This document shows positions 17,539-37,018 of a stretch of 64,000 bases of DNA, in pieces. The stretch is from Symbiodinium natans. Lineage: Eukaryota > Sar > Dinophyceae > Suessiales > Symbiodiniaceae. Numbering within the stretch: the first letter of the stretch is position 1; every line of letters begins with the position of its first letter. Position numbers and translations under genes: made by a program. The stretch covers positions 671,501-735,500 of the forward strand of contig CAJNDS010001624.1 in the NCBI GenBank assembly GCA_905221605.1, given 5' to 3'. The notes beneath the pieces are model-generated. The model was not told the origin of the DNA and did not search any database. It saw nothing but the letters and a program-made list of their open reading frames with translations.

Positions 17539-17543
17539 CCCTA
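17539..17543. other. Target-site duplication, 5' copy (CCCTA)
   Basis: CCCTA sits immediately before the TGCGGAG start of the 5' LTR. The same five bases follow the 3' LTR at 26307-26311. With the flanks joined, the empty site reads ACCCTAAACCC, a telomere-like string. Confidence 0.85.
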
Positions 17544-17819
17544 TGCGGAGCATTGTATAGGTCCAGGTTGGAAGGGTAAAACACCCGCGAACATATTTGG
17601 CTCAAGGCTCAAGGATGGCCGGAAGCTGTCCGTTCGCTCTTAAAAAGTTAGGCCGCTGGGGTTTGGGGTTTGGTTACAGTAAGGGTCCTTTCCCCTCCCG
17701 TTTGGTTACTTTGGGCCTGAGGGATTTTCTCTTGTGGTTCGGTCTGGGGAATTCATTCAGGGCAACTATTGAGGGTGATATTTGGGCTGGCTCCTTGTCC
17801 CCGTGGGTTGCCCCCCGTA
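17544..17819 (+). repeat. 5' LTR
   Basis: 276 bp, starting TGCGGAG and ending CCCCCCGTA. Compared with the 3' LTR it lacks GTTG after TGCGGAG and has six extra bases (TCCAGG) shortly after. Three substitutions, all C/T or G/A, separate the rest. It contains a spliced-leader-like string at 17596-17613. Confidence 0.92.
17596..17613 (+). other. Spliced-leader-like relic in the 5' LTR
   Basis: TTTGGCTCAAG is identical to the last 11 bases of the conserved dinoflagellate spliced leader. It is followed at once by a second GCTCAAG and then GATGG. A CCG string about 10 bases upstream matches the leader start. Tandem truncated leaders are typical of mRNAs that were trans-spliced, retroposed and trans-spliced again. 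Confidence 0.6.
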
Positions 17820-17832
17820 GGTTATGAGCCCA
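17820..17832 (+). promoter_or_regulatory. Primer-binding site for half initiator tRNA-Met
   Basis: GGTTATGAGCCCA begins on the base after the LTR. It is complementary to the anticodon stem-loop of initiator tRNA-Met (…GGGCTCATAACC…). From memory, Drosophila copia has almost the same site (GGTTATGGGCCCA) and is primed by a half tRNA-iMet. This points to a Ty1/copia-type parent. Confidence 0.85.
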
Positions 17833-17886
17833 AATTAGGTTCCCTGCGGTTAAGCGTTTTTCTCAAGGATTCTGGGTTGAGAAGCA

Positions 17887-19179
17887 ATGCCTTCGCCCAA
17901 AAAATGGCTTCAGCCCTCCGTGCATGGTGACAAAAGTGGTGGAGCTGACAGCGGAGTGGATAGTGGTGCAACTGGTTCTCAGGTTGAAGAAGCGGCGCTG
18001 GAAGAAGAAATGCCTGGTACTGCAGAAGAACAACTGGAGGGAACGTCAGTTGCTGGAGACCCCAATGAGGGCATAGATCCCAATGCGGGTATGGTTGAAA
18101 ATGCTGAAGGTGAAAGACGAGCTGTTTCTGTATCACCAAAACCTGGAGAAAAAAGGAACTGGGATGAAACTGGTGGTATAGACCGTGAACTGGAGGCGAC
18201 CGTTTTACGCGTGTTGCTGAGGCATGGGTATCAGCCGTCGACTTCAACTTCGGGCCGAATGGTCGATCAAGGGGCTCAGACCAATCTGAGTGGAGCGGTG
18301 TCGCAAGTTTCCAGGAAACCTCTGAACAAGATAAAAGGGGATCCCTCAGCGAGTTCCATGTGCGATGAAGGCGGTGATGAAAAGGAGACAAAGGGTGCGG
18401 ACAGCTTTGAAGCTGCACCTACTGCTGAATACGCCATGGGGGAGGAGGAGATCCTAGAGATGGAGGTTGAAAGGATGCGCCAGTTGTCTGAAGAGGCGGA
18501 TGAGATGCGCCAAGTCTCTGAAGAGGATGGTTTTCAGAAAGACGAGCATCTGATCCAAGCGTGTGATGGGACAACCTGGGACTGGCATTTCCACGAAGCT
18601 GGGAGACAGTATTATTACTGCCTGGATACGCAGGAGAGCAAGTGGACACTGCCGGATGTAGGTGAAAAGATGGAAAGTGACAAGGTGGTTGAGTCTCTTT
18701 CAGGCAATGGACTGGAGTTGGAGACTGCACTGGGTCCTTCATCGTCTACTCCGACAGCTGAGTCTACAAGGGCGTTCCAAGGTAGTGTAGATAGTGTAAA
18801 TAAGGAATTATTTTCCTCTACCATCGGGGATAGCGGTCTTAGGGGTGGTAAAGCTGCTGAGACCTCGGGTTCTCCAAGGGAGGATAGAATTTCTGGATTC
18901 CAAACAGACATGGCTGGAGAACACCTGGATCGGGAAGGAATCGAAGCACTTTCTGAGGGTGACGCAGCGGTGAAATCTGTGGATCTGGAGGACAAGATTC
19001 CCAATGCGAAGGCGAATGCTGTGTCGGTTACCAAGGAGCAGGTGGGAGATAAAATTTCTGGCATTCAGGAGGTTGGTCCTGGAGATGAGGATGATGGAGA
19101 AAGAAGGTTGTGCGTTACGACTGAGGAGGTTTCTCCGTCGCCATGGATTCCACCACTCAGAGGGAGGCTTCTGGAATAA
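17887..19179 (+). CDS. Element segment a: acidic N-terminus with WW domain
   Basis: 430 codons are open. Residues about 230-258 form a WW domain: TWDWHFHEAGRQYYYC then SKWTLPD, with the two signature Trp residues about 25 apart, a Tyr triplet between them and the closing Pro. WW domains bind Pro-rich or phospho-Ser/Pro peptides and are frequent in RNA-processing factors. The rest is Glu/Gly/Ser-rich and probably disordered. The start is the first ATG after the primer site, 67 bases downstream of it. The true frame probably leaves this segment near 19125-19150, and the last residues here are out of frame. Confidence 0.7.
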   Translation: MPSPKKWLQPSVHGDKSGGADSGVDSGATGSQVEEAALEEEMPGTAEEQLEGTSVAGDPNEGIDPNAGMVENAEGERRAVSVSPKPGEKRNWDETGGIDRELEATVLRVLLRHGYQPSTSTSGRMVDQGAQTNLSGAVSQVSRKPLNKIKGDPSASSMCDEGGDEKETKGADSFEAAPTAEYAMGEEEILEMEVERMRQLSEEADEMRQVSEEDGFQKDEHLIQACDGTTWDWHFHEAGRQYYYCLDTQESKWTLPDVGEKMESDKVVESLSGNGLELETALGPSSSTPTAESTRAFQGSVDSVNKELFSSTIGDSGLRGGKAAETSGSPREDRISGFQTDMAGEHLDREGIEALSEGDAAVKSVDLEDKIPNAKANAVSVTKEQVGDKISGIQEVGPGDEDDGERRLCVTTEEVSPSPWIPPLRGRLLE

Positions 19180-19780
19180 CTGGAGACGCAGTTATTTTGC
19201 TAAAAAAGGACGATGAGGCCTGGAGCGCCAATGAAGCGCGGACTGGTGCGCAAGAGAAAACCTGGAGTGCAGAGGAGGCACGGGTTGAGGCGCATGTGGT
19301 TTCATGTTCCGCGGATGACTGCAACAATGGGGCGCAGGTCTCCGTAGTAGCCGACGATGGAGGCTCACAGGTGGACGCACTAGTGCAGCCTGAAGTTGGC
19401 GGCGAGGAACAGAATGATGAAGGCCACACCGGAGCCAATGGGGCAGCTGCGGCCGACGATGATGGTGTTATTTCCCCCTTGGTAACCATGGAGCCAAAGG
19501 ATCCTACAGTGGAAGAAAATGTGCCTGCTGTAGATGACCAAGAAAAGGACCCGGATGGGGTCTCTTCCTCCAAAAGGGAGGAGACATTGCCGACTGGAAG
19601 TTTGCTGGAAGTCGACACCGTGCAGGCTTCAACAGGGAAGGCAGAGCCTTTGGCAAAAAAGGATGATGGTTCTGTGTCACTGGAGTGCAAGGTGAATGAT
19701 CTTGTGGAACTCACTGGTGTACAGGACGAGCAGCTTGGTCCAATGGTGGAAGCAAGGGCGTTCAAGGGGCCGAAGAAAGT
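19143..19780 (+). pseudogene. Element segment b: acidic spacer, shifted frame
   Basis: It continues the coding signal of segment a in another frame. The protein is Glu/Asp/Ala-rich without a recognised fold and contains repeated W-S-A-E/N-E-A-R motifs (about 19225-19290). The frame stays open to 19937, but the signal passes to the next frame between about 19735 and 19780. Confidence 0.6.
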
Positions 19781-20419
19781 GTGCCGGTTTCTGAACAAAC
19801 GAATGAAGTACCCAATGAGGCAGCCCCAGCTACACATGGAAAGCATTGCTATGAAAAGGGAGATAAGATCACTGGAATTGTTTGCTACATCAATGTGCAT
19901 GGAGCTTATTTGGAATATGGTGATCTGGATGTATTGATTCCTGCGGAAGGGAAAAATACCCTTCTTTTCAAGGTCGGTGATACCGTGCAATCAGAAGTGC
20001 AAAGAGTGGAACAAGATGGTACTGTGATCTTGGACACCTACCTGTTTCTGGAAGAGGATGAAGATGAGGACCCTTCCTCTGCGCTGCGAAAATGGAAAGA
20101 CAGCGGTTCAGGTACGTGGTGGAGAGATTCATGGTATGCTGGTCAATGGTACCAAGATTCCGACGGTCAATGGGACTGGAAGTCGGAAGAATGGCAATCC
20201 TACGAGTGGTTTGCCGATCAGCGGTTATCCTCGGAAGAACGAGATGAAGCCGTTCAAAAACAACTCTGTGGAGAAAAAACTTATAGAGCACTCCTGGAGA
20301 ATGGAAAAAATGAAAAGGAGTATTTGGGCAAGATCACTGGGATGTTGCTGAATCGTCGAATGGACGAGGTCAGAGAGTTGGTGGCAGATCCTGCACTGAT
20401 AAAAACGAAGCTCGACTAG
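19781..20419 (+). CDS. Element segment c: S1 RNA-binding domain + MLLE (PABP C-terminal) domain
   Basis: Residues about 26-88 match an S1/OB-fold RNA-binding domain: GDKITGIVCYINVHGAYLE, then LIPAEG, then KVGDTVQSEVQRV and DGTVIL. Residues about 105-150 are packed with Trp and Tyr. Residues 164-212 match the MLLE domain of poly(A)-binding protein: YLGKITGMLLNRRMDEV, then ELVADPALIKTKLD; KITGMLL is the family signature. MLLE domains grip PAM2 peptides of translation and deadenylation factors. The open frame ends at TAG 20417, inside the last MLLE helix, and a TGA follows one codon later in the same frame. An upstream GTG is the nominal first codon here, but the segment really continues from segment b. 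Confidence 0.75.
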   Translation: MPVSEQTNEVPNEAAPATHGKHCYEKGDKITGIVCYINVHGAYLEYGDLDVLIPAEGKNTLLFKVGDTVQSEVQRVEQDGTVILDTYLFLEEDEDEDPSSALRKWKDSGSGTWWRDSWYAGQWYQDSDGQWDWKSEEWQSYEWFADQRLSSEERDEAVQKQLCGEKTYRALLENGKNEKEYLGKITGMLLNRRMDEVRELVADPALIKTKLD

Positions 20420-20437
20420 CAGTGACTAGCATACAAT

Positions 20438-21545
20438 ATGCTGTGCAATGAAGGTTGGACGCCCAGTGGTACAGAAGATGCAGGTTTGGAAAAAATAAAA
20501 TATCCCCGGAAGCAGTACCACAATGCGCTTCACGACCTGGCACGTCAAAGGAAAAAATATAGTGCAGCGGTCGTAGGTGAAGCAGTGGCAACGTTGCTAG
20601 ACAAGGGAGAAGATGAACACTGGAATGAGCTCTGGTTGGATTCAAAAAAGTTTTTGCAGGAGCTTGATGGTGCGGTTGAAGCTATGCGTGCACGGGAGCA
20701 AAGGCCAATGGAAACCTACCTGGACCCGGACAAGTACAAAAAGGTTTATATGACGCCAAAACCTGTGTCGAAAGGGTATACAAAGCTGTGCAAATTTTAC
20801 AATCTAGGGAGGTGTCGCAATGGAAGCGATTGTCCCTATGAGCATCGTCGTCATGGTGAAGGGTGGCCAGAAAGAGGTCCAAATGAATCCGAGACCAGCC
20901 AAAATACTGGCGATGAGGATGGGGACATCGGTGGCCCTCCAACTGATGAAGGTGCAGTGGATGAGGTACAGCAGGAACGGGAGGATTCAGCCTTCCGAGC
21001 CCAGTACAACTACGGCAAAGGGGCGTCAAAGGGTGAGCCTACATCGGTTGAGCCAAAAAAGCAGATGTGTCTGTACTACAACCGAGAGGGTTGCAAATTC
21101 GGAAATGCCTGCAGATATATCCACGACGACAAAGCGGTATTGGAAGGGACTTGGGAACCTGGCAAATCTTGGGACAATGCCTCCCGAAAGGCCATGAGGG
21201 ATGAAGGGTTCCACCATTGCTGCTTCGACTATTACCTCAAAGGGAAGTGTCGCGTGCGATATGGTCCTTGCAGATTTTCTCACGCTGAAATGTCGGAAGA
21301 TCGACTGACTCGGCTGAAATATTTGGCGAACGTGGCAAACCAGGTCAGGTTCCAAAAAGAAAGAGGACTGGAGATTACAGACAGAAGTACTTTCAAACCA
21401 CCTGTAATTGGGGGAGCTGAATCTTCATCGTCCTCAGCACCGCAGGCGTTGCAAATGACCAATGTGTCCAAAAAGGAAGGTGTGGTCGATACACTGGATG
21501 AAGCAGAAGCAGATGTACAAAAGGATTCGGTTGGCAGAGTCCACC
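20438..21545 (+). CDS. Element segment d: three CCCH zinc fingers
   Basis: Same frame as segment c, restarting at an ATG 18 bases after its stop. CCCH fingers lie at residues 118-136 (C-x7-C-x5-C-x3-H, CKFYNLGRCRNGSDCPYEH), 211-229 (CLYYNREGCKFGNACRYIH) and about 261-282 (C-x8-C-x6-C-x3-H). Such fingers bind single-stranded AU-rich or poly(A) RNA in Nab2, ZC3H14 and tristetraprolin-like proteins. The frame is open to 21634, but the coding signal moves to the next frame between about 21510 and 21545. Confidence 0.75.
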
Positions 21546-22450
21546 ACTGTACTGCTTCAAGATCCAGAAGAGCCAATAGAACATTGGATGGCTCGCAACC
21601 AACACCTGTGGGTATACACACCTCAAGTAAGTGAGGTGATGATCAAGCTTGGTGTGACCAACGTCAAAGAGCTCCAGGAGTATATCTTCGTGGAAGATTT
21701 GGTTGAAAAAGGGGTCAACAAGGTGACTGCCTGCAAAATTCTGAAGCTGGTTGGCGGTGTCCGATACCGGCCAATGTTGCCGGATGTGGCTGTTTCTACC
21801 AATGCGTCGGTACGCGTGGAGCAATCTTCTGGAAGCCGTGAAGCTGGAAGGGATGCAGCGAGAACCATCTCTCAGGTGCGAGAAGCTGAAGGTCACGGTA
21901 CAAAAGAGATGCCGCGAGGGTCGTATAGGGAGATCCTCAACAGCCGCTACTGTGAAGCTTGGACTCTTGAGCAAAGGTCTCCGCTGTGCGTGCAGAAGTT
22001 GCAGTTGGTGGGAATGGGAGTGCCACCGGTTAACCCGCCTAAAAAGGGTTTTCGAACAAGGTCAAACCCCGTGAAGAGGGGACGACCCCTGCTGAATCGG
22101 AAACAGGTACAACGTGTGCCACGTTCTTATTCGAATCGGCGCATGCGGCCAGCAGAGGTCGTGGAAAAGCCAAAGCCGTTGCAACCTCCTCGTGGTGGTT
22201 TATCTTTTCGATTTAGCAGATCATGGGCAGATTTGGAGGACGATGATCATGATGGAGCGTTGGTCTCCTACGCCGCGTCCTCGGGAGAGTCCAGTGCGGA
22301 GGAAGCTGCCGAAGCTCAGAGGTTAAAAGAAGCCCTTTGCAAGAAAGGGATTCAAAGAGAACCAAAAAGGGTGGCAATGTTCCACGGGGTTCTCAAAGCT
22401 CCAATGGTGGGCACCAAACGCTTGGCGAAGAGCGCGACAAAGCGTCGCGG
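21546..22450 (+). pseudogene. Element segment e: SAM-like domain and basic region
   Basis: In the frame open from 21462 to 22679, about 21624-21760 reads as a helical SAM-like unit (SEVMIKLGVTNVKELQEY, FVEDLVEKGVNKV, CKILKLVGG). The domain call is by pattern only. It is followed by Arg/Pro-rich sequence and an AT-hook-like KRRGGRPAKKG near 22440-22475. The signal moves frame somewhere in 22330-22500, possibly at the six-G run at 22449-22454. Confidence 0.5.
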
Positions 22451-24634
22451 GGGGAGACCCGCCAAGAAAGGTCTTCTCAAAATTTTTCGCTATCACAATC
22501 TTCGGTTCAAGCCGCAGTCTCAAAAAGGGCAAGGGATGGCTCTATTATTGGTGGTTCGATGGCGGTGGGCTCTACGGATGAGGATCGACCTGGGCAAAGG
22601 GTTGCTGGACAGGAAGATGCGTCTGGAAGCGCGGAAGTTCTACCTGGGCAAGAAGACGCTGGACAGGGAACAGCGTTAGAGACAGAGCTGGCCACTGGTG
22701 AAGAGACTGGGTGTGATCAAGGCGAAGGCGGGAGCAATGAACTCCATGGTGATGGCATGAAAAAATTGGCTGTCCTTAAGGCGCAGAAGAGCCATGAACA
22801 GCTATTGGCCAAAGGTCTTCTGATGCGGATCTATTTGAAGGTCGCCGACGGCAGGATACCCGTTGAACAGAAGGACTGTCCGAAAGGACCCAATAAGATG
22901 GATCGAAATTTAGTTATCAGTGTGTCTACAGACGGCGCGAGCGAGCAGGAGTTGAGCCTGGCGCTGGTGGACAACGCCGGTCCTTCAATGGAAGATGGTA
23001 CAGCATTATTGCCGGTGTGTGATCCACAAAGATTGATACAGTCGCCAACGACTGATTGGGTTATGCGTCGTGGTTTGACCGATCGTGCCATATGGCCCGC
23101 AATAGCGGCTTCAGCTCGAAATATATGTGCTGAAATGATTCAGGTGGATGAAATGAATTTCCGGTTGGAAAATGGGAAACTCCTTTGTCAAAGGAGAGAT
23201 CAAGGACATTATGGTGATTTGCATCATCCTTTCCATGATCATCCGTGTTTGCCGGCAGCGGGGAATTATCCACTTTCTGTGATGGGAGCATTGCTATCGC
23301 CTGGCCTGGAGAATGAATTCCGAAGCACCGAAACGTTCGGAACTGCAATGGAAGCAATAGCCTTCGATTGGAGCCGTATTCCAGGTATGGAAGTTCATGT
23401 TGAACTTATGGTTAGGGTAGCAAAATTGGTTTATCCGCTCCTTACTATAGGAGGCCAAGGGACGGCGGTGAACTCAGAGTTTAACTGGCAGCGCGGAAGG
23501 GATCAACTGATGGAATTCCTTCAAGCAGCGACATGTGCTGATGAGTTGGAGGAGCTCTGGAAACGAATGGATGATGATGATGATCAAGAAGTAGATCCAT
23601 CAGGTTGTGTGCTGGAGTTCTCTGGACAGGACAAGTCGGTTTTTGAACAAGGGAATGGTGAGAATCCTGATTCTTCTGCTGGTATCAAGGAAGAGATGAA
23701 CGAAGAAGAGGCTGCTGGCAAAGCGCCGGAAATATCCCCTGAAGAGGAGGCAGCTGATAGTTCATCAAGGCAGAGTGTCACAAGGATGTTTCTGCAGAAA
23801 ATTTACGAGAAGCTCTGTGAACTTTCACTTCAAGATCGACACACTGGGAGGATTTTCGACAGCACGAAGGGATATCCTGGTGAAGGACCAAAGAATGATG
23901 ATGATTTGACTTTCTCAAAGAGGAACTTGCCCTGGATTTCTGAAGATCACCTCGATCAAGTGGAGGCAAAAAAGATGGAAATGTCTTCAGATGAGAATGT
24001 GCTGGATGGGTTTGTTCCGGAAGGTGAGGGACAGTTGGAAAAGGTAGAGGTGGAGAATGTAGCTGCCTCTAGAATTCTTATGGCTCTTTGGAAGAAGGGA
24101 TATAGAGCCGGGTATAGGAGGTTGTGTCGCTCAAATGTATCTGGACCCAAGGTTGGAGCAATAAATCATCCAATCAAAACGGCGCGGAAGATTGGCACTA
24201 GAAAAACCTTCTTGAAGATGCCCAGTATTTGTGGATCGGCTCAGCATGGCTCAGGAGCTGGTGGGAAACCAATCATGAAGGTGGTAGGACCAAGGCCAGG
24301 TTTTCCCGCTGTTCTCGATGCATCAAACATTGATAGCACCTTGGGTGAAGGGAGCAGTTCTCAGGTACATGACAATGTTCGTGTAGAGCAGAATCGCCCT
24401 ATGGACCGTTACGAAGCGGAGCGTCTGGAGAAGAGGAAGAGAGGTATCTGCTATTGGTTCAGCAGGGGAAAAGATAACTGCAAATTCGGTGAGAATTGCA
24501 AATTCATCCATTCAAAGAATGATGTGGTGCTACAATCATTTTGGTGTAAATATTTTGTGGCTGGGAGACATTGCTTCGCTGGAGAGGACTGCAAGTTCTC
24601 GCACGATGCAGCTGGTGTAAGGTGTATCCAGTTT
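22451..24634 (+). pseudogene. Element segment f: long unknown region ending in two CCCH fingers
   Basis: The frame is open from 22337 to 24844. About 600 residues show no family I recognise (one region has HYGDLHHPFHDHPCLP; others are acidic). Two CCCH fingers follow at 24449-24511 (C-x9-C-x5-C-x3-H) and 24545-24604 (C-x8-C-x5-C-x3-H). A third finger starts in this frame at about 24626 but is completed only in the next frame, so a single base appears lost in the T-run at 24632-24634. Confidence 0.6.
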
Positions 24635-25062
24635 CTCAGTCTGGGAAGTGCCGTCATGGTGACAAGTGCGTCTTCGAGCACGGTGATCCTTTGGGTGGAC
24701 AAAGGCCGAGGTCTCCTAGGACGCCCCCAAGGGATAGCCCAAGGAGGAGTACTGGTACAAGAGATGGTGGAAAGAAAATTTCTCCTGAACGTTATGATGA
24801 AGATGAGGAGGATCTTATGGGGTATGATGACGGCACCAGGATGATGGAATTGCTGACGGAGGCAATTTCGTACATGTCTGATGGTAAGCCAGATTTGGCC
24901 CGCGCAGAAGCGGATCCGGTGTTCAAACTCTTGAAATTCAATGGGGATGCTGAACAGATGGACGCAGAATGGTGTTCATGGACGTCTGGTATGTTGTCTT
25001 CATTGGAACTTCACGAAATAGTGAAGTCATACGAGGTTCCACTGGAAGAACCAACAAGCTAA
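24616..25062 (+). pseudogene. Element segment g: last CCCH finger and RS/acidic stretch
   Basis: In a third frame, GKCRHGDKCVFEHGD completes the sixth CCCH finger. It is followed by an RS/RP-rich stretch (RPRSPRTPPRDSPRRS) and an acidic DEDEED patch. The frame ends in TAA at 25060, but the next frame continues seamlessly (…ANLEEGSDPKRGKK…). Confidence 0.55.
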
Positions 25063-25657
25063 CCTGGAAGAAGGGAGCGATCCAAAAAGGGGCAAAAAGA
25101 GGTCCCTGGAAGGGGAGTCCGGTAAGGACACTCCTGCTAAAAAGGAGGTATTTGGAACCTCGGAGACGGAGGTTAACGTTGAAGAAGAGGTTTAAAAAGC
25201 CAAGAAGAAGAGGAAGACTACGGCAAGTGAGGATCCCTATACTCTTCTGGTTCCAAGGCCGAAGAAGAAGCCGGTGAATACTGAGAAGGGTGGACCGTCA
25301 TCCAAGGCGGTGGTTTCCGGAGAGGAAAAGGCCTCTTCACGAGCGCGCACAAAGACAAGCGTTTCAGGAAAGACGCAAAAGAAGGAGAGAAGTCAGAGTC
25401 CAAAGAAGGAAGAGGTGGCAAAGGTGAAGGGTCCTGAGGAAAAGGATCGTTCCTCTGATGTGGATGCGCAAGCGTCTACCACTGTGGATGCGGAACTGGG
25501 GCAATCCTGCCAAGCAATTGAAGACGCGAAGAGAGAGGGGTTGATCTCCTCAATTCAAAGGTGTGTGCAGGATCCTGTTCTTACAGTGTCGGACCTGGAA
25601 TACGTTTTGCTGCGACTTCATCTAAGCATCGACGCCAACCGGAAGAAGAAGAAGTGA
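25055..25657 (+). pseudogene. Element segment h: Lys-rich C-terminal tail
   Basis: The sequence is Lys/Glu-rich with likely nuclear-localisation clusters (KKPVN, KAKKKRK). It has a stop TAA at 25193-25195 between VNVEEEV and KAKKKRK, then is open to TGA 25655-25657, ending DANRKKKK. The last about 40 residues (LISSIQRCVQDPVLTVSDL…) look like a short helical module. A separate 34-codon frame at 25738-25842 follows; its status is unknown. Confidence 0.5.
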
Positions 25658-26019
25658 TGACTGGATGGTGTGGATGATGGAATGGTTTTTTCTCTTTCTG
25701 AAGACAGGTGCGCTGGAACAGCCAATGTGCTGAAAGTATGGCGGTTACTGTTAAGGGTATGGAAATCCCTGATGGTAGAGAGTGTACAGCTCTTAAGGAT
25801 TTGAAGACCGTATTCGGGGTGAAAAAGACCGGAGAGTCTTAAGAAACGGTTCTTTGTTGTAATTCACTCGTCCTGGATGACGTAAAACCATAGTTTGCAA
25901 GCCAATGGCTACGGCCCGTCTAATGGACGTTAAACACTTGTTTGGCTGCTGAGAAAAGAACAGCTTTTGGCCAGAATGGGAAGTAATCTGCACCTCCAAA
26001 GGTGTCCTGAGGGAACCTC
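25658..26019 (+). other. 3' untranslated part of the LTR element
   Basis: No recognised protein. It holds one small open frame (25738-25842, MAVTVKGMEIPDGREC…) that might be a detached final piece of the long ORF. Confidence 0.5.
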
Positions 26020-26032
26020 AGGACAGGGGGAG
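26020..26032 (+). promoter_or_regulatory. Polypurine tract (AGGACAGGGGGAG)
   Basis: It consists of purines except for one C and directly abuts the TGCGGAG start of the 3' LTR. This is the expected place and composition for plus-strand DNA priming. Confidence 0.8.
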
Positions 26033-26306
26033 TGCGGAGGTTGCATTGTATAGGTTGGAAGGGTAAAACACCCGCGAACATATTTGGCTCAAGGCTCAAG
26101 GATGGCCGGAAGCTGTCCGTTCGCTCTTAAAAAGTTAGGTCGCTGGGGTTTGGGGTTTGGTTACAGTAAGAGTCCTTTCCCCTCCCGTTTGGTTACTTTG
26201 GGCCTGAGGGATTTTCTCTTGTGGTTCGGTCTGGGGAATTCATTCAGGGCAACTATTGAGGGTGATATTTGGGCTGGTTCCTTGTCCCCGTGGGTTGCCC
26301 CCCGTA
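26033..26306 (+). repeat. 3' LTR
   Basis: 274 bp with the same ends as the 5' LTR. The spliced-leader-like TTTGGCTCAAG plus GCTCAAG is kept unchanged at 26083-26100. Differences from the 5' copy are three transitions and two short indels. Confidence 0.92.
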
Positions 26307-26425
26307 CCCTAAACCCAAAAACCCAAACCCCAAACCGTGAACCTTGAGCCCTAAGCCCTCAACCCTAAACTAACCCTCAACCCTAAACCCCAAACCATAA
26401 ACCCGGAACCCTAAACCCTAAACCC
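26307..26425 (+). repeat. Target duplication (26307-26311) and degenerate CCCTAAA telomere-like repeats
   Basis: CCCTAAACCC-type units with many variants (ACCCAAA, AACCATA, AGCCCTC) follow directly. They are the likely pre-insertion context, since the 5' flank ends in TTGAACCCTA. Confidence 0.8.
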
Positions 26426-34224: not shown

Positions 34225-34383
34225 CTGCAGAGAGCAAAACATATCACAATGGGATCGTTTTCAGCCAATATGGCCACGATCGGAGCCATTCACTTGCGTG
34301 GCCTCACGTTACAGATGTGGCACTCAAATCCAGACCAAACCTTGCTGTGATTTGAGTACGACACATTTCGCTAGTTTCTATGC

Positions 34384-37018
34384 CGGCGCAGTTGCAAGCC
34401 CGCACCCCCTCCCAAGCCTTGAACCTCCTCCAAGCTGCGACGAGTTTCTAAGCCCGGCATGGGTTGCCAGCCCGCACCCCTGCCAAGCACCCCCAAGCCC
34501 CCCCAAGCTGCGACGAGTTTCTAAGCCCGGTACGGGGTTGCTAGCCCGCACCCCTGCCAAGCACCCCCAAGCCCCCCCAAGCTGCGGCGAGTTTCTACGC
34601 CCGGTGCGGGTTGCCAGCCCGCACCCCTGCCAAGCACCCCCAAGTCCCCCCAAGCTGCGACGAGTTTCTAAGCCCCGGTGCGGTTTGCCAGCCCGCACCC
34701 CTGCCAAGCACCCCCAAGCCCCCCCAAGCTGCGACGAGTTTCTAAGCCCGGTACGGGGTTGCTAGCCCGCACCCCTGCCAAGCACCCCCAAGCACCCCCA
34801 AGCCCCCCCAAGCTGCGACGAGTTTCTAAGCCCGGTGCGGGTTGCCAGCCCGCACCCCTGCCAAGCACCCCCAAGTCCCCCCAAGCTGCGACGAGTTTCT
34901 AAGCCCCGGTGCGGTTTGCCAGCCCGCACCCCTGCCAAGCACCCCCAAGCCCCCCCAAGCTGCGACGAGTTTCTAAGCCCGGTACGGGGTTGCTAGCCCG
35001 CACCCCTGCCAAGCACCCCCAAGCACCCCCAAGCCCCCCCAAGCTGCGACGAGTTTCTAAGCCCGGTGGGGGTTGCCAGCCCGCACCCCTGCCAAGCACC
35101 CCCAAGCCCCCCCAAGCTGCGACGAGTTTCTAAGCCCCGGTGCGGTTTGCCAGCCCGCACCCCTGCCAAGCACCCCCAAGCGCCCCCAAGCTGCGACGAG
35201 TTTCTAAGCCCGGTGCGGGTTGCCAGCCCGCACCCCCCTGCAGGGGTGTGGGTTGGCAACCCGCACCGGGCTTAGAAACTCGCAGGGGTGCGGGCTGGCA
35301 ACCCGCACCGGGCTTAGAAACTCGTCACAGCTTGGGGGAGGGGTGCGGGCTGGCAACCCGCAAACTCGTTGCGGCTTGGGGGGGCTTGGGGGTGCTTGGC
35401 AGGGGTGTGGGTTGGCAACCCGCACCGGGCTTAGAAACTCGCAGGGGTGCGGGCTGGCAACCCGCACGCTTAGAAACTAGTCGCAGCTTGGGGGGGGCTT
35501 GGGGGGGTGCTTGGCAGGGGTGCCGCCCCCCCTGCCCCCCAGCTCCCCCAAGCTGCGACGAGTTTTCGTTGCCCAGCCCCCTGCCAAGCACCCCAAGCCC
35601 CCCAGCTGCGACGAGTTTCTAAGCCCCAGCCCGCAGCCCCCCCAAGCACCCCCAAGCCCCCCCAGCTGCGACGATTTCTACCAGGTGCGGTTGCCACCCG
35701 CACCCCTGCCCCCAAGCCCCCCCACTGCGACGGTTTCTAAGCCCCTGCCAAGCACCCCCCCCCCCCCAGCTGCGACGAGTTCTAAGCCCGGGCCCTTGCC
35801 ACCGCACCCCTGCCAGCACCCCCAGCCCCCAAGCTGCGACGAGTTTCTAAGCCGGTGCGGGTTGCCAGCCCGCACCCCTGCCAAGCACCCCCAAGCCCCC
35901 CCAAGCTGCCGCACGCAAGCCCCCCCAATTTTTAAGCCCGGTGCGGGTTGCAGACCCCAGCACGCCCAAGCCCCCCAGCCTGCGACGATTTCTAAGCCGC
36001 CATTGCCAAGCACCCCAAGCCCCCCCAAGCTGCGACGAGTTTCTAAGCCCGTGCGGGTTGCCAGCCCGCACCCTGCCAGCACCCCCAAGCCCCCCCAGCT
36101 GCGACGAGGTTCTAAGCCTGCAAGCGGGTTTGCCCCCGCACCCCTGCCAAGCACCCCCACGCCCCCCCAAGCTGCGACGAGTTTTCTAAGCCGGTGCGGG
36201 TTTGCCAGCCGCACCCCTGCAGCACCCCCAAGCCCCCCCAAGCTGCGACGAGTTTCTAAGCCGGTGGGGTTGCCAGCCCGCACCCCTGCCAAACCCCCAA
36301 CCCCCCCAAGTGCGACGAGTTTCTAAGCCGTGGCGGGTTGCCAGCCCGCACCCTGCCAAGCAGCCCGCACCCCTGCAAAACCCCCAAGCCCCCCCAAGCT
36401 GCGACGAGTTTCTAAGCGTGCGGGTTTGCCAGCCCGACCCCTCAAGCCCCCCCAAGCTGCGACGAGTTTCTAAGCCCGGTGCGGGTTGGCCAGCCCGCAC
36501 CCTGCCAAGCACCCCCGCAAGCCCCCCAAGCTGCGACGAGTTTCTAAGCCCGGTGCGGGTGCCAGCACGCACCCCTGCCAAGCACCCCCAAGCCCCCCCA
36601 AGCTGCGACCAGTTTTAAGCCCGGTGCGGGTGCCCCCTAACCCCCCCCAGCTGCGACGAGTTTTCCTAAGCCGGTGCGGGTGCCAGCCCGCACCACTGCC
36701 AAACCCCGACCAGCAGCCCGCACCCCCTACCAAGCACCAGAACCCCCCCAAGCTGCGCCGGTTGCAGCCCGCACCCCTCCATGCACCAAAAAACCCCCCA
36801 GCCCGCGACGAGTTTCCCGCCAGCCCCCTGCCAAGCCCCCAGAACCCCCTGCCAAGCACCGCAACTGGCGAGCCCGCCCCCTGCAAGCACCCCAAGCTGC
36901 GACGGTTTCTCAGCCCGGTGCGGTTGCCAGCCCGGTGCCAGCAGAAAAGCTGCGACGCCCAGCCCGGCACCCCCCACCAAGCACCCCAGAACCGCCCCAA
37001 GCTGTGACGAGTTTCTAG
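34384..37018. repeat. GC-rich satellite, 74-bp monomer with a built-in hairpin
   Basis: The monomer contains GCGACGAGTTTCTAAGCCC, then GGTGCGGG-TTGCCAG-CCCGCACC (8-bp stem, 7-nt loop), then CCTGCCAAGCACCCCCAAG. Spacing between 34437 and 35193 is 73-74 bp, with an 83-bp variant, giving a repeating 83+74+74 = 231-bp higher-order unit from 34731 to 35193. From about 35235 to about 35520 the monomers run in the opposite direction, then the original direction resumes. After about 35520 units carry many small deletions. Long Pro/Arg reading frames here are artefacts. Confidence 0.9.

Follow-up and report, generated by a model that had tools for sequence, protein, structure and literature searches.

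A protein-coding LTR retrotransposon family of Symbiodinium natans that lacks pol and shares its ends, primer site and telomere-repeat target with a Ty1/copia family

The window analyzed here is a 64,000-nucleotide stretch of the dinoflagellate Symbiodinium natans (contig CAJNDS010001624.1, positions 671,501 to 735,500; G000:C1624:671501-735500 in our numbering), and the genome searched is the 759,417,921-base assembly of 2,543 contigs. Window positions 17544–26306 hold a retrotransposon with long terminal repeats (LTRs), whose interior encodes domains typical of the mRNA machinery and no recognizable polymerase polyprotein (pol). We refer to LTR elements that carry this open reading frame (ORF) as the window family and to pol-bearing Ty1/copia relatives as the partner family. 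The two ends of the region carry 255-nt direct repeats that are 99% identical (17565–17819 and 26052–26306). These belong to LTRs of 276 bp (17544–17819) and 274 bp (26033–26306) with the termini TGCGGAG...CCCCGTA, differing by three substitutions and two indels. A target-site duplication (TSD), CCCTA, flanks the pair (17539–17543 and 26307–26311), and its 3' copy opens a degenerate telomere-type CCCTAAA array (26307–26425), the insertion target, which contains five of the window's seven TTTAGGG/CCCTAAA heptamers. The 5' LTR is followed by a 14-nt primer-binding site (PBS), GGTTATGAGCCCAA (17820–17833), and the 3' LTR is preceded by a hairpin, TGTCCTGAGG/CCTCAGGACA (26003–26025), and the polypurine tract (PPT) GGGGGAG (26026–26032); apart from the duplications and the array, all element features lie on the forward strand. 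Hairpin and PPT can be aligned across nine window-family copies and one partner copy. With paired LTRs, a TSD, a PBS, a PPT, and many dispersed copies, this is an LTR retrotransposon, and repeat search and sequence comparison confirm the complete mobile-element structure that the initial annotation, made from the letters of the window, had claimed. The window copy is an aged member of its family.

The interior holds a reading region (17887–25657) homologous to an intact ORF of about 2,600 codons elsewhere in the genome. A single region of that length had been proposed for the window, which holds for other copies, whereas the window copy carries it as seven pieces in changing frames. In Pfam searches of eight window pieces, an MLLE domain with a KITGMLL signature (20240–20413; 5.5e-7) and an S1 RNA-binding domain (19853–20032; 2.9e-6) exceed their curated cut-offs, as do CCCH-type families in two pieces. 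Six CCCH fingers can be placed: fingers 1 (20789–20845), 2 (21068–21124), and 5 (24545–24604) by Pfam and pattern, finger 3 (21218–21283) by pattern, finger 4 (24449–24511) by Pfam, pattern, and the profile aligner hhalign, and finger 6 (24628–24681, limits approximate) by ORFs and Pfam. The set of WW, S1, MLLE, and CCCH domains first suggested thus stands for the last three; the WW-like stretch (18571–18654) is weak in Pfam (0.87, below cut-off), and the sixth finger runs across a frame change, the other five lying within open pieces.

Complete copies give a clearer view of the protein. In the near-identical copies L012, L013, and L014, read whole, a single frame stays open for 2,628 codons, and in L018 for 2,607; the L012 product measures 2,609 residues from its first ATG. 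In L012, CCCH and Torus models score well over cut-off in Pfam, MLLE reaches 27.6 bits (cut-off 27), and S1 is found at 0.12; in L018, MLLE reaches 26.6 bits against the same cut-off, S1 is absent from the Pfam listing, and in neither copy does a WW domain appear at E ≤ 1. Two family alignments, A2 with 35 rows and A3 with 31 and a few proteins in common, extend these results. MLLE is detected at E ≤ 0.1 in 34 of the 35 A2 rows and S1 in 7 of 35, the residues GKITGMLL are almost invariant, and the A2 profile matches MLLE chains of PABP in the PDB at 2.1e-4 and a WW chain of PRPF40A at 0.007, no stretch of the latter kind passing alone. The CCCH pattern occurs six times in the intact protein, compared with a mean of 0.0 in 200 shuffles of the same protein. 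Pfam finds no reverse transcriptase (RT), integrase, protease, or RNase H family in the eight window pieces or the two intact copies, nor any pol family among those listed for the A2 and A3 rows (E ≤ 0.1 and ≤ 0.5, respectively), and hhalign of the partner integrase and RT pieces against a further alignment, A1, detects no hidden pol. The element is therefore a non-autonomous one that encodes a protein of the mRNA-machinery type, as had been proposed, and neither it nor the two intact copies has the protease–integrase–RT–RNase H interior of an autonomous Ty1/copia element. No description of this ORF set appears among the titles and abstract openings listed from the open-access literature.

The family is multicopy and its protein is under constraint. 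The S1-MLLE piece has 628 genome candidates, of which 150 were scored, so that copy number is a lower bound, and the CCCH piece has 1,637, with 104 scored. A frame of at least 2,590 codons is open in 19 of the 150 scored S1-MLLE places (our count). LTRs at least 93% identical to those of the window occur at seven places, two being the window's own, and in L012–L014 LTRs that are 100% identical over 223–224 nt surround the open ORF. We rejected the possibility of a host gene with unrelated flanking repeats, because intact copies elsewhere show the same LTR-ORF-LTR layout; the LTR belongs to the interior. Pairwise dN/dS mostly falls between 0.15 and 0.45: it is 0.27 between L012, L013, or L014 and L018 (about 2,350 codons, dS about 0.40), 0.32–0.37 among L012–L014 (dS about 0.01), and 0.13–0.46 when open pieces from further copies are compared with L012 or L018, with dN biased downwards throughout by the exclusion of windows below 50% identity; the comparison with L011 yielded no value. 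Since these ratios are well under 1, the large ORF is maintained by purifying selection.

This result bears on the rather improbable explanation that a captured host RNA-binding gene merely rides along and contributes nothing to the spread of the element. The S1, MLLE, CCCH, and weak WW domains are of a type found in the host mRNA machinery, and captured genes are known in LTR elements (PMC3726574). A passive passenger would, however, hardly keep a frame of about 2,600 codons open in many copies with dN/dS well below 1 between subfamilies. Nor was a host ancestor recognized among the 13, 38, and 40 homologous proteins, all ENA entries, that a public set returned for three queries, a weak argument given records without stated organisms; the host-gene capture put forward in the initial annotation accordingly found no backing. 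L009 and L010 (on C1513 and C2354) are closely related to the window copy and have identical 3' flanks over the stretch read, which suggests that one locus was duplicated. At C95:107300-121600 (L016/L017), LTR matches lie about 14 kb apart around a repeat-rich interior block, possibly a nested insertion, and C2411:3486-28862 (L021 is part of it) carries four equal-scoring copies of the ORF piece within about 25 kb and looks locally amplified.

The primer site connects the window family with other elements. The LTR/PBS junction occurs 859 times in the genome (441 + 418), compared with 8 times (5 + 3) in the reversed control. A Met-tRNA signature, which replaced an earlier tRNA pattern that hit one place with three mismatches, finds eight places (one in the reversed control), and ARAGORN calls tRNA-Met at seven of the eight. 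In all seven genes the 14-nt PBS is the exact complement of TTGGGCTCATAACC, an internal stretch reaching through the anticodon loop. We take these to be initiator-like tRNAs, judging by their GATCGAAAC T-loop. Drosophila copia is primed in this manner, by a half-tRNA derived from an internal Met-tRNA stretch, and by sequence the initiator Met-tRNA is the putative primer here. Three other copia elements of the same genome (L032–L034) have TGGTAGCGGAGC instead, a match to the 3' terminus of this tRNA including its CCA.

Sequence downstream of PBS junctions identifies a pol-bearing relative. From the first 100 junctions, 20 without a window-family ORF match were picked by eye, and 1.2 kb was read about 2 kb downstream of each; because sites of this kind were chosen, the sample is biased towards other content. 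Ten nevertheless show the window-family ORF, eight a Gag-type frame with CCCH and CCHC motifs, and two neither; the eight Gag-type stretches share 94.9–99.2% DNA identity. One partner copy, L062, was read to 10 kb. It starts with TGCGGAG directly after ACCCTA and aligns with L012 at 77% over 268 columns of LTR and leader and at 84% over 259 columns of 3' untranslated region, PPT, and LTR start, including a counterpart of the hairpin. Its pieces score above cut-off for RVT_2 (1.5e-10) and below it for CCCH, CCHC, and the integrase family rve, the integrase match lying upstream of the RT. The partner RT has 1,531 genome candidates, the best 104 of which are 99–100% identical, 26 of them lying in frames of at least 3,000 codons (our count). 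The partner is thus a Ty1/copia Gag-Pol family that shares LTR ends, PBS, 3' hairpin and PPT, and target with the window family; the search for pol-carrying relatives of the element led to a separate family, and the window family has the ends, PBS, and PPT expected of its non-autonomous companion. High-scoring copia RTs (150 of 2,237 candidates scored) were also considered as partner and were rejected, because the four elements read, L032–L035, lack GGTTATG[AG]GC.

Two further stretches within the partner pol region, L062:3353-4468 and L062:6344-7660, carry what we presume to be cytosine-methyltransferase-like motifs (VVHLFSG, GGPPCRTVSR) and a 2OG-Fe oxygenase-like motif (HRDSHNE). Pfam and PDB sequence searches of these stretches returned nothing credible. 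According to PMC5890265, copia is the most abundant retrotransposon type in Symbiodinium, and its members have no DNMT domain. At C23:250937 on the minus strand (L080), the same LTR end and PBS occur, but the stretch read contains no TGCGGAG start, and neither the window-family ORF nor the Gag-type frame follows downstream; this locus may represent a third subfamily.

Similarity between the partner proteins and the window-family ORF is limited to CCCH fingers. No Gag family is detected by Pfam in the intact copies or in the A2 and A3 rows; the intact-copy counterpart of finger 4 resembles the CCCH finger of the partner Gag, with 41% identity over 29 residues in hhalign (probability 72.6, E 3.2e-5) and 44% over 27 by BLASTP. 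One could accordingly regard the large protein as a massively altered Gag, its C-terminal CCCH pair derived from the CCCH+CCHC Gag of the partner and the remainder added, which we consider doubtful: the match is that of one zinc finger, an easily convergent fold, and the first Gag, integrase, and RT pieces of the partner give only matches below 1% probability against the window-family protein. The common ends, primer site, and target of two multicopy families, together with the conservation of the window-family ORF, would also suit a two-part system, in which the partner supplies enzymes and the window family an RNA- or target-handling protein that serves both. We give this arrangement little credence, as the partner has a CCCH+CCHC Gag and pol of its own and need not depend on the protein.

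Insertion sites point to a narrow target. A 3' pattern consisting of TCGGGTTCCCCCCGTA plus flank, in which the 16th flanking base is not T, has 36 matches and none in the control; all 36 lead into a telomere-type repeat in one phase, the next bases being TAGGG in 19, CCCTA in 16, and CCTTA in one. Among the matches listed, 20 junctions lie at the expected distance from the window-family ORF, seven from the partner RT, and nine from neither. This pattern replaced an earlier one that excluded the TAGGG phase and whose 17 matches were all in CCCTAAA arrays. At the other end, an LTR-start pattern whose tenth flanking base is not A, which drops 3' LTRs, finds 652 junctions (reversed control, 0); the first 100 in contig order comprise 49 with exact CCCTA and 40 with exact TAGGG, or 89 in total. 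Nineteen junction sites, partly the same ones, were read with their flanks: the LTR start is present in 18, once as CGCGGAG, and the flank is exactly TAGGG or CCCTA in 16 of the 18. Partner copies follow the same rule (six of seven exact, plus L062). An exact 5-bp TSD is present in five of the seven copies with both flanks read, namely the window copy, L012, L013, L015, and L018. With the same target phase in so many insertions, integration looks sequence- and phase-specific.

TTTAGGG is the dinoflagellate telomere repeat (PMC11453091), and TTTAGGGTTTAGGG occurs 3,575,698 times in this genome, compared with 537 times in the reversed control. Tandem TTTAGGG arrays amount to about 25 Mb, or about 3% of the assembly (our arithmetic), far exceeding what chromosome ends would need. 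Arrays this common, and a pair such as L009/L010 that looks duplicated together with its flank, raise the alternative that telomere-type flanks reflect abundance or element-plus-flank duplication with no targeting at all. We regard it as very improbable in light of the single phase, seen in either orientation, that 89 of the first 100 5' junctions share, the exact duplications in five of seven two-flank copies, and the presence of only two heptamers in the window away from the element. The listed titles and abstract openings of the open-access literature likewise describe no LTR element whose target is a base-exact position in the telomere repeat. Other loci were considered as well. A telomere array on C1783, first taken for an insertion site, was rejected because no LTR pair lies within 12.2 kb, and C2301 has none within 10.2 kb. 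A copia element at C136:974700-986899 (L032+L037+L041) has 195-nt repeats of 100% identity, its LTRs, with (GTTT)n on both outer sides; it was set aside as lying within a (GTTT)n run and not a telomere-type array. Judging by this element, specificity for microsatellites may extend to further copia families.

The fixed-phase target, the internal-tRNA primer site, and the selection on the ORF go beyond the initial annotation, and they shape the explanation we favor: the window element probably belongs to a non-autonomous, protein-coding dinoflagellate LTR family that relies in trans on the partner Gag-Pol for its copying, integrates into telomere repeats, and encodes a probable messenger ribonucleoprotein (mRNP) adaptor for its own RNA. 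The element would be transcribed from LTR to LTR and its large protein translated from the transcript. The partner RT would reverse-transcribe element RNA from the Met-tRNA inside partner particles, and the partner integrase, the presumed source of specificity, would insert the cDNA into TTTAGGG arrays by cutting with a 5-bp stagger, in nearly all cases across TAGGG. The 2,609-residue protein most likely binds its own transcript via the CCCH and S1 domains, and MLLE, perhaps with WW, may dock the transcript to host translation or poly(A) factors, giving element RNA preferred access to partner particles. A protein conserved in a family whose enzymes are supplied by another would be expected to work chiefly on the RNA that encodes it.

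Several points weigh against this explanation. The case as a whole is built on genome sequence, and a trans role of the protein, serving both families, is an alternative to action in cis. Its WW and S1 domains are weak in the intact copies, the partner integrase (rve, 4.5e-4) falls below cut-off, and the dN/dS values carry the bias given above. Exact flanks are missing at 11 of the 100 5' junctions (by our judgment, ten are repeat-like and one, GCACAGCCTG, is unlike), the exact TSD is missing in two of the seven two-flank copies (L014 and L020), and tolerance may add to targeting, because telomere-type arrays make up about 3% of the genome. RNAalifold finds compensatory change in 0 of 17 pairs of the 3' hairpin, which leaves its RNA structure unproven. 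That the protein recruits poly(A) RNA or PABP partners, as once suggested, is a prediction from its domains, and no PAM2-like motif was found in the intact protein or in the five pieces searched from a partner copy; a link from MLLE to the partner through PAM2 was rejected for this reason.

Known systems resemble parts of this arrangement. LARD, TRIM, TR-GAG, and BARE-2 elements likewise have LTRs, a PBS, and a PPT without working pol and are presumed to be copied in trans by an autonomous relative. LARD and TRIM interiors are non-coding, large in the case of LARDs, whereas the window family has a long conserved ORF of about 2,600 codons, with S1, MLLE, and CCCH domains, under purifying selection; TR-GAG and BARE-2 keep Gag or gag-pol parts, whereas the S1/MLLE/CCCH protein has no Gag family by Pfam and one finger like that of the partner Gag. 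The RVT_2 RT with integrase upstream in the partner, the 5-bp TSD, and a PBS for an internal Met-tRNA, as in Drosophila copia, are Ty1/copia traits; the window family differs from that group in its lack of pol, both families in their fixed telomere-repeat phase, and the partner in a Gag with CCCH besides CCHC. Yeast Ty5, a member of the copia group, is also an LTR element directed to telomeric chromatin. Sir4 steers Ty5 to silent chromatin (PMC4700185), whereas the target here is a base-exact repeat phase. SART/TRAS (PMC7265360, PMC2868851) and MoTeR/FoTeR (PMC12857005) likewise insert within telomeric repeats. These, however, are of the non-LTR type and bring an endonuclease of their own, in contrast to the LTR elements here, which have a 5-bp TSD and sit in arrays that are telomere-type by sequence. 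A bolder version of the favored explanation is possible, though we hold it only tentatively: a two-family LTR system, base-precise in one telomere-repeat phase, whose non-autonomous member has replaced gag-pol by a giant mRNP adaptor, which secures that member's RNA for the particles of the partner. Such a system might equally tentatively be viewed as an LTR counterpart of SART/TRAS specificity combined with Gag-independent packaging.

A copia-type family that strikes the same TTTAGGG phase almost always would offer a naturally occurring case of sequence-directed LTR integration and would model the colonization of telomere-type arrays by transposons. A giant protein of RNA-binding type under selection raises the question of how it benefits an element whose enzymes come from elsewhere. 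The protein is a candidate factor for packaging in cis or for controlling translation via MLLE/PABP-type contacts. Elsewhere in the window, 34373–36631 is a G+C-rich minisatellite with a period of about 72–74 bp, whose unit has a partly inverted GGTGCGGGTTGCCAGCCCGCACC core.

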